In this document: positions 57,376-58,279 of the stretch, one piece after another
Layout: every line of letters starts with the position of its first letter
How positions within the stretch are numbered: the stretch's first letter is position 1
Source: Labrenzia sp. R4_2
GTDB taxonomy: Bacteria; Pseudomonadota; Alphaproteobacteria; Rhizobiales; Stappiaceae
Assembly (NCBI RefSeq): GCF_017743865.1
Contig: NZ_JAGHRJ010000001.1
Location: forward strand, 62,001 to 126,000
DNA length: 64,000 nt
Direction of reading: 5' to 3'
Position numbers and translations under genes: made by a program
The notes under the pieces: model-generated
Seen by the model: the letters and a program-made list of their open reading frames with translations, nothing else
The model's database searches: none
Told to the model about the DNA's origin: nothing

Positions 57376-58011
57376 ATGACAGACCTCAAGAATCCCCATG
57401 AAGAGTTAACAAAAGGTGACTTTGTTGAGGCAGAGAAACCATTTGAGCTGTTTGATGAATGGCTTGAGGAAGCCAAAACGACCGAACCCAACGATCCGAA
57501 TGCTTTGGCGCTGTCGACGGTTGATCCGGACGGATTGCCAAATGTACGCATGGTTCTCCTGAAGGGTTTTGATGAAACCGGGTTTGTTTTTTACACAAAC
57601 CTGGAAAGCGCCAAGGGCCGTGAGCTGTTGTCGGCTGGTAAGGCAGCCATGTGCTTCCATTGGAAGTCGCTGCGGCGGCAGATCCGAATCCGGGGCGAGA
57701 TTGTCCAGGTGTCCGCCGAAGAAGCGGATGAGTATTATCAGTCCAGGCCGCGCGGCAGCCGTATCGGTGCCTGGGCCTCCCGCCAATCACGTCCGCTGGA
57801 AAGCCGGTTTGCGTTGGAAAAGGAAGTGGCCAAATACACGGCAAAGTTCGGTATTGGCGATATTCCGCGCCCCGAGCATTGGTCAGGTCTGCGCTTGATC
57901 CCCAGTGAGATTGAGTTTTGGGCGGACCGGCCCTTCCGGCTTCATGACCGGGTAAAGTTCACGAGGTCAAGCCCGTCCGAGCCGTGGAACAAAGAGCGCC
58001 TTTATCCTTAG
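57376..58011 (+). CDS. pdxH: Pyridoxamine 5'-phosphate oxidase
   Basis: PdxH oxidises pyridoxamine or pyridoxine 5'-phosphate to pyridoxal 5'-phosphate with FMN and O2, the last step of vitamin B6 synthesis and salvage. The 211-residue protein has the usual DPNALALSTVDPDGLPNVRM, VLLKGFDETGFVFYTNLESA (FMN site), CFHWKSLRRQIRIRGEI, ASRQSRPLESR, and the C-terminal FWADRPFRLHDRVKF, ending in ERLYP. The upstream frame to 57223 is not needed; CAGGG precedes ATG 57376. Its stop codon falls at the edge of a long inverted-repeat element. Confidence 0.95.
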   Translation: MTDLKNPHEELTKGDFVEAEKPFELFDEWLEEAKTTEPNDPNALALSTVDPDGLPNVRMVLLKGFDETGFVFYTNLESAKGRELLSAGKAAMCFHWKSLRRQIRIRGEIVQVSAEEADEYYQSRPRGSRIGAWASRQSRPLESRFALEKEVAKYTAKFGIGDIPRPEHWSGLRLIPSEIEFWADRPFRLHDRVKFTRSSPSEPWNKERLYP

Positions 58012-58279
58012 GCCGTGTGGACGAATTGGAGACGTATTTCGTGAGACAAGTGCCAAGATATGGCGGCGACGGTCCGGTAGAGCGTATCGATATACGGTCA
58101 AGGGACCGGCGGTGCCAGATCGTCGGCACTTGTCTCACCTTCTGGGCCGTGTTTGCATTGCTCCATTCCAGCGCAAATCCGTCTTGATGATGCGCAAGCA
58201 TCATCTTCACCGGATTTCCTTGATCTTGAACGATGCAAATCCCGGCGAAATGCATCTCCAATTCGTCCACACGTCCTAA
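58008..58279. repeat. 272-bp nested inverted-repeat element
   Basis: The outer 34-bp arms (58008-58041 and 58246-58279), each reading inward TTAGG-CGTGTGGACGAATT and on to ATTTCG, differ at three positions. Between them lie two hairpins. Hairpin 1 (58041-58138) has perfect 14-bp ends, GTGAGACAAGTGCC with GGCACTTGTCTCAC, and further pairing inward to GGTCC/GGACC. Hairpin 2 (58151-58240) pairs GTTTGCATTG with CGATGCAAAT, AAATCCG with CGGATTT, and GATGATGC with GCATCATC around GCAA. TA occurs at both edges, as for IS630/mariner-type MITEs. It has no frame of its own and covers the pdxH stop. Confidence 0.85.

Follow-up and report, generated by a model that had tools for sequence, protein, structure and literature searches.

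The 270-bp inverted-repeat insert at the end of pdxH in Labrenzia sp. R4_2 (positions 58009-58278 of the window, the whole 64,000-nucleotide stretch of DNA analysed here) is very probably a copy of a non-autonomous mobile element (MITE) of the genus Roseibium, seated in the TA of the pdxH stop codon with that TA duplicated, and likely moved by an IS5-family transposase of the IS427 group. No report of this Roseibium repeat family was found in those portions of the literature that were open to our search. The features of the locus are collected in Table 1.

Table 1. Features of the element and its neighbouring genes, in window positions
Feature	Positions	Strand	Remark
Mobile element including the TA on each side, 270 bp	58009-58278	.	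Single TA in the empty site of G007; 54 related copies with corresponding borders
Duplicated TA target, left copy	58009-58010	+	
Duplicated TA target, right copy	58277-58278	+	
Left terminal inverted repeat	58011-58041	+	With TA, the outer 20 bp of the family arm match IS5-family ends at 18-20 of 20
Right terminal inverted repeat	58246-58276	-	
Hairpin 1, 98 bp	58041-58138	+	Inner helix richest in compensatory changes
Hairpin 2, limits approximate	58144-58245	+	Covariation weaker
pdxH, pyridoxamine 5'-phosphate oxidase	57376-58011	+	Start codon inferred; TIGR00558 match
pdxH stop TAG, target TA plus the element's first base G	58009-58011	+	TAA in the empty relative G007
CorA-family transporter gene, convergent neighbour	58286-59329	-	PF01544

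The preliminary description, made from the letters of this DNA, had drawn an inverted-repeat element of 272 bp (58008-58279) with outer arms carrying three mismatches and two inner hairpins of 98 and 90 bp. Its architecture is confirmed. The outer arms (58007-58041 and 58246-58280) are 35 nt long and 91% complementary with 3 mismatches, and across 35 aligned copies the outer stem of these terminal inverted repeats is paired in 96.0% of cells. The inner pair 58041-58054/58125-58138 is perfect over 14 nt, and hairpin 1 has the expected 98 bp. The element itself is real, but the duplicated TAs reduce its extent to 270 bp, and hairpin 2 is slightly longer than was described. The RNA fold predicted for 58007-58280 has a free energy of -153.9 kcal/mol (z -13.4) on the + strand and -150.6 kcal/mol (z -13.9) on the - strand, and none of 200 shuffled versions folded equally well on either strand. 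The predicted shape is a three-way junction formed by the outer stem, hairpin 1 and hairpin 2.

The element belongs to a dispersed family. The genome of Labrenzia sp. R4_2 (G000) holds two further full-length relatives, 93% and 71% identical, together with three short palindromes, and matches at E<=1e-5 occur in 11 of 45 Roseibium genomes. Among 57 loci examined, 54 full or nearly full copies from nine genomes were aligned and three partial ones were dropped. The genomes contributed at least 1 to at least 15 aligned copies each, these numbers being lower bounds because no more than 17 candidates in any genome were scored; removal of four orthologous copies left 50 independent sites. The arm pattern (up to 3 mismatches) was present in 10 of 87 genomes of the family, with 10 of 45 inside the genus and 0 of 42 outside it, and in a sample of the order it was found in 3 of 397 genomes: G000, G022 and, as a single match, an incomplete genome from outside. 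Exact arm matches in a named genome collection came from Roseibium marinum, an uncultured Labrenzia and the alphaproteobacterium AO1-B. The whole element had no match at 1e-5 in plasmid and phage collections, and no transposase gene lies within its 270 bp. By a crude ORF caller, 21 of the 54 copies stand between tandem genes, 13 inside an ORF (calls that are this caller's alone), 9 between convergent and 7 between divergent genes, and 4 have a gene on one side. The arm search of this genome and its relatives, which had been suggested as the check for a MITE, thus yielded many copies with the same arms, TA at both ends and empty sites, and these support a non-autonomous mobile element.

The empty sites were found by joining the flanks of ten sites over one TA and searching them in 45 genomes. 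The pdxH site is occupied in G000, G023 and G038; another 23 genomes show an uninterrupted alignment across it. Twenty orthologous stretches were compared with the joined flanks. Nine are gap-free at the site with one TA (L172, L177, L182-L185 and L187-L189); the remaining eleven are less clean, one reading TT (L180), one TG (L176), one holding a short element (L181) and eight having gaps or diverged flanks, although six of these eight still read TA. The single TA of the empty sites, as at pdxH in G007, indicates from sequence comparison that TA is duplicated on insertion, in agreement with the TA noted earlier at each edge. TA still stands at both ends in 39 of the 50 independent sites. The insertion targets were CTAG in 28 of 50 sites and YTAR in 46 of 50, while CTAG makes up only 2.8% of the TAs in the window. 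One site is full in G007 (L062), collapsed in G000 (L181) and element-free with TT in G023 (L180), although G023 shares the pdxH insertion with G000; the last state may reflect precise loss or lineage sorting.

Insertion at pdxH would have left the gene terminated in place. The preliminary description reported an overlap with the pdxH stop, which holds but is an understatement, since the element supplies the last base of that codon. The first base of the element is G on both strands, and an intact copy entering a TAA or TAG stop in either orientation therefore leaves TAG; target TA and the element's G would rebuild the stop. A gene with such an insert still ends in place, as the empty-site comparison indicates for pdxH, and PdxH matches TIGR00558 to the last position of the model. 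We infer that this insertion is harmless. The convergent neighbour matches PF01544 but scores too low to pass NCBI's CorA equivalog model. At 24 of the 50 independent sites, a coding-like ORF (90 codons or more, GC3-GC2 above 0.12) finishes at the target TA. The idea that stop codons are especially attractive was abandoned: CTAG is scarce in the window (34 sites in 1-64000), and 14 of the 33 testable sites end a coding-like ORF, against 34 of 160 for YTAR, so the preference for CTAG suffices to account for the share of insertions in stop codons. By the window's distribution of CTAG, any element seeking this tetramer would often land in stop codons.

Shortened forms accompany the full-length copies. 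At least eight palindromes of 48 bp were counted, three in G000 and, by coordinates, at least two in G014, at least one in G020 and at least two in G031. They look like collapsed copies, and two were compared with relatives: one palindrome of G000 (L181) stands at the site of the full element L062 of G007, and a second (L005) sits, by comparison of the flanks, where G023 has the full element L051. In the 48-bp form the left arm runs as far as its TTCG and continues with the part of the right arm that follows TTCG. Given this junction, slippage between the TTCG repeats of the two arms is the likely route by which some copies would collapse. Three further loci, L078, L121 (G014) and L130 (G020), are deletion derivatives that retain hairpin 1. 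Judged by eye, L078 and L121 have apparently the same deletion of hairpin 2 at two locations whose flanks differ; a copy lacking most of hairpin 2 thus seems to have transposed, and this type may be a mobile subfamily. No stop codon interrupts the interior in frame +0 of 30, frame +2 of 19 and frame -0 of 28 of the 54 copies, compared with about 2% of base-shuffled versions (one copy, one frame); in the window, the - strand has a long stop-free frame at 57959-58270, and one size class of such frames ends at the target TAG. A conserved protein within the element was rejected, as the frame shifts between lineages and variable columns are spread over the codon positions as 11/10/15 and 10/13/12. 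No Pfam family matched the two open frames of the G031 consensus.

The fold is maintained between lineages of the family. The consensus of each of the nine genomes is predicted to form a closed outer stem and inner hairpins. RNAalifold on all 54 rows gave 52 pairs with 94.5% of cells paired, and the fold of the window copy, applied to the same rows, gave 105 pairs with 86.0%; the latter was used for the counts on lineage consensi (51 of 54 copies, L003, L071 and L076 dropped) and for the within-lineage and change-rate counts (50 of 54, also without L056). In six lineage consensi, with the structure of the window copy, 558 of 629 cells pair, against 34-40% when the structure is slid along the alignment, and 25 of the 105 pairs have changed on both sides, against 2-8 when slid. 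A second alignment (A2) held 35 of the 54 copies, chosen by hand to cover all nine genomes, a choice that favours pairing because the diverged L116 and L120 were left out. RNAalifold returned 67 pairs here. Cells paired at 95.1%, compared with 33-42% for slid and 89.2% for shuffled versions, and there were 171 double-change cells compared with 12-34 and 50, respectively; the structure was derived from this same alignment, which gives it an advantage over the slid versions. Inner covariation is found mostly in hairpin 1, with little in hairpin 2.

Among differences from the lineage consensus, and relative to random placement, double changes that keep the pair are in excess (47 vs 10) while those that break it are not (10 vs 11); single changes kept the pair 138 times vs 127 and broke it 273 times vs 356, for a pair-keeping share of 0.336 vs 0.263. 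Changes unique to one copy comprise 166 single-broken, 49 single-kept, 8 double-kept and 3 double-broken cases, counts that have no null of their own. Per position, one-copy changes amount to 196/6687 (0.029) in the inner stems, 82/3438 (0.024) in the outer stem and 127/3142 (0.040) in loops, and are rarer in stems than in loops (p 0.005 for inner, 0.0001 for outer). Fewer one-copy changes in stems, together with single changes that keep pairs above the random level, make some constraint after insertion possible. In our reading, spreading lineages keep the fold, and it mostly decays, perhaps slowly, once a copy has landed. With double changes between lineages and mostly pair-breaking changes in single copies, selection or correction of the fold probably took place in the copies that continue to move and not at each landing site. 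Within a transcript the insert would fold on itself, and between the genes of an operon this could, we infer, lessen polarity.

An alternative to be weighed seriously is correction of the arms. The fold may be devoid of function, its arms being kept alike at the DNA level by cruciform- or hairpin-templated repair or by template switching, which would make double changes in a single step. We hold this to be possible, if somewhat unlikely. The outer arms also covary by lineage (A2 columns 8/272 and 9/271), and the collapse to 48 bp suggests that strand-switching or slippage errors do occur; on the other hand, such correction would be inefficient, for one-sided breaking of pairs is common (the 273 single-broken against the 47 double-kept changes), and several stem pairs are also seen in G-U states. 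More speculative, and in our view rather doubtful, is that the cloverleaf is itself the payload: a CTAG-seeking, stop-restoring, self-folding and terminator-free insert that lets operon transcription pass and is selected in moving copies. Compensatory evolution of both the arms and the inner hairpins would be the mark of such a payload.

The preliminary description also offered a structured RNA as an option. Under that explanation the element would be an RNA, a terminator or an RNase site with a function for the host, selection on the RNA would account for the fold, and transposition would be secondary. The z-scores of the predicted fold and the compensatory changes are what one would expect of it, as are the 24 of 50 sites at the end of a coding-like ORF and the lower rate of one-copy changes in stems. 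We nevertheless judge it unlikely. A host role at pdxH is not supported where only three genomes hold the element and 23 relatives align across the site without it; one-copy changes mostly break pairs (the 166 single-broken cases); and the share of stop codons is close to that of the window's CTAG sites. Rfam covariance models gave no match at E<=1 in 57500-58800 and none above the gathering score in the whole window, and no terminator- or promoter-like site was found at 57900-58400.

The identity of the mover rests on the ends of the element. A search with the arm alone against plasmids, at E up to 10, matched 13 records, 8 of which were examined, and led to IS5-family elements on Rhizobiales plasmids. 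The plasmid IS is 878 bp long and bordered by TA; its ORF 1 matches PF13340, and its ORF 2 matches PF01609 and NF033580 (IS5 family). Both ends lie 878 bp apart in five of the eight plasmid loci, with an annotated transposase between them in four of the five; three arm-only matches (L198, L199 and L200) were not used, having no second arm-like end within 5 kb and no inverted repeat in the adjacent stretches searched. For L196 and L202, one end is identical to the outer 20 bp of the MITE (20/20) and the opposite end agrees at 18/20, and a comparison of L195, L196, L202 and L209 gave 18-20 identical of the outer 20 bp. In Roseibium, 30 loci were examined, and L202, L203, L205, L208, L209 and L211 have both ends with 0-4 mismatches of 19, while the more distant IS5 loci L215, L217 and L224 have, at both borders, arm-like ends that match less well (4-5 mismatches of 19). 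The same kind of IS5 element occurs in G010, G040, G016, G019 (shorter) and G001, and in degenerate form in G038. Copies with these ends were seen on contig C1 of G016 at 5467446-5468326, 5591393-5592200 and 5623910-5624717, two of them 73 bp shorter. In L196 (3340-3380) and L202 (1498-1530) the reading frame of the transposase seems to continue into the IS end and to terminate at the TA derived from the target, as TAG and as TAA respectively, so this IS seems to take its own stop codon from the target. IS870 is a similar case of a stop codon supplied by the target.

Because IS5-family ends match 18-20 of the outer 20 bp of the MITE, a transposase of the IS427 group, which would recognise these 20 bp, is the likely mover. 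The 2-bp target repeat, TA at the MITE sites, is as expected of that group: in the part of the Paracoccus survey consulted, 11 of 11 IS427-group entries measure 832-865 bp, 10 of 11 have a 2-bp repeat, and the group is described as having two overlapping ORFs (PMC3281130). The likeness is confined to about 20 bp although the MITE arms stay alike over about 31-35 bp, and the inner hairpins show no likeness to the IS beyond its ends. With one 133-aa ORF as query, transposase relatives were found in G010, G016 and, degenerate, G038 (56%). The same one-ORF query found no relative over about 50% identity in G000, G007, G014, G020, G023, G026 and G031, the source of 49 of the 54 copies; the nearest transposase in G000 has 42% identity, and the end of its element agrees at 15/20. 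The mover is therefore deduced from ends and target, and it may have been lost from the genomes that hold most copies.

An IS630/mariner-type transposase, named in the preliminary description on account of the TA at each edge, is a far less probable mover. The TA duplication, with 39 of 50 sites bordered by TA on either side, would suit an IS630/Tc1-mariner enzyme, and the RUP repeat of Streptococcus pneumoniae has been proposed, in the portion of the review consulted, to be moved at TA by IS630-Spn1 (PMC2229807). PF13358 (DDE_3) was, however, not found in 7 of 10 carriers, including G026, G014 and G020 with 12, 6 and 7 aligned copies; 25 IS630 loci from the other three carriers showed no arm-like end pair, many of them, including most of those in G022, being cut by contig ends; and it is IS5-family elements that carry the same ends at 18-20 of 20. 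Least plausible of all is a REP/REPIN-like repeat with a RAYT (Y1 transposase) as its mover, or a repeat organising the chromosome: there are short palindromic forms, and REPINs likewise show compensatory changes in their hairpins according to the part of the source seen (PMC3116915), but Y1_Tnp (PF01797) was found in only 2 of 10 carriers, with no arm-like end pair among loci often cut by contig ends, TA is duplicated, and the family has at least 1-15 aligned copies per genome and a patchy presence in the genus (10/45).

The family shares traits with several known systems. It has the 2-bp repeat of IS427-group elements (PMC3281130, in part), and the 0.88-kb relatives found here, with two ORFs, have ends that match its outer 20 bp; it differs in having no transposase gene, an unlike and strongly folded interior, and arms of 31-35 bp. 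The lengths, the partner of RUP and the features of CIR given below are taken from excerpts of a 2007 review by Delihas (PMC2229807). RUP is also non-autonomous, with a TA target and IS-like ends, but is 107 bp long, has an IS630 partner and lives in a Gram-positive host. The Correia/NEMIS repeats of Neisseria have TA termini and a long stem in transcripts; they measure 107 and 155 bp. In Roseibium the end-to-end stem bears two further hairpins. CIR of Caulobacter and Brucella are two-armed folded repeats of Alphaproteobacteria that have two arms, a linker and a conserved GANTC. The Roseibium element differs in that its ends pair and that it duplicates TA, and the GANTC motif of CIR is absent from 50 of 54 copies. 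The REPINs of Pseudomonas resemble the family as mobile palindromic units with compensatory hairpin changes (PMC3116915, in part) and differ in being RAYT-associated; the Roseibium family duplicates TA, and RAYT is present in 2 of 10 carriers. In the consulted sections of the 2007 review, all bacterial repeats but CIR are described as armless end-to-end stems, and matching IS ends are named for only one bacterial MITE family (PMC2229807). Set against those armless stems and the two arms and linker of CIR, the cloverleaf MITE is a variant form.

Taken together, the repeats form a MITE family whose mover is likely of IS5/IS427 type and whose unusual cloverleaf is maintained by lineage. A single family can here be traced over nine genomes through its empty sites, collapsed copies in the same places and a candidate mover with matching ends. 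Its preference for CTAG can put the element into stop codons without any signal for gene ends. Changes are compensated between lineages but mostly uncompensated in single copies; this contrast helps to tell whether selection acts on the mobile lineage or comes from the host, and it turns the matter of why transposons fold into a directly testable question.
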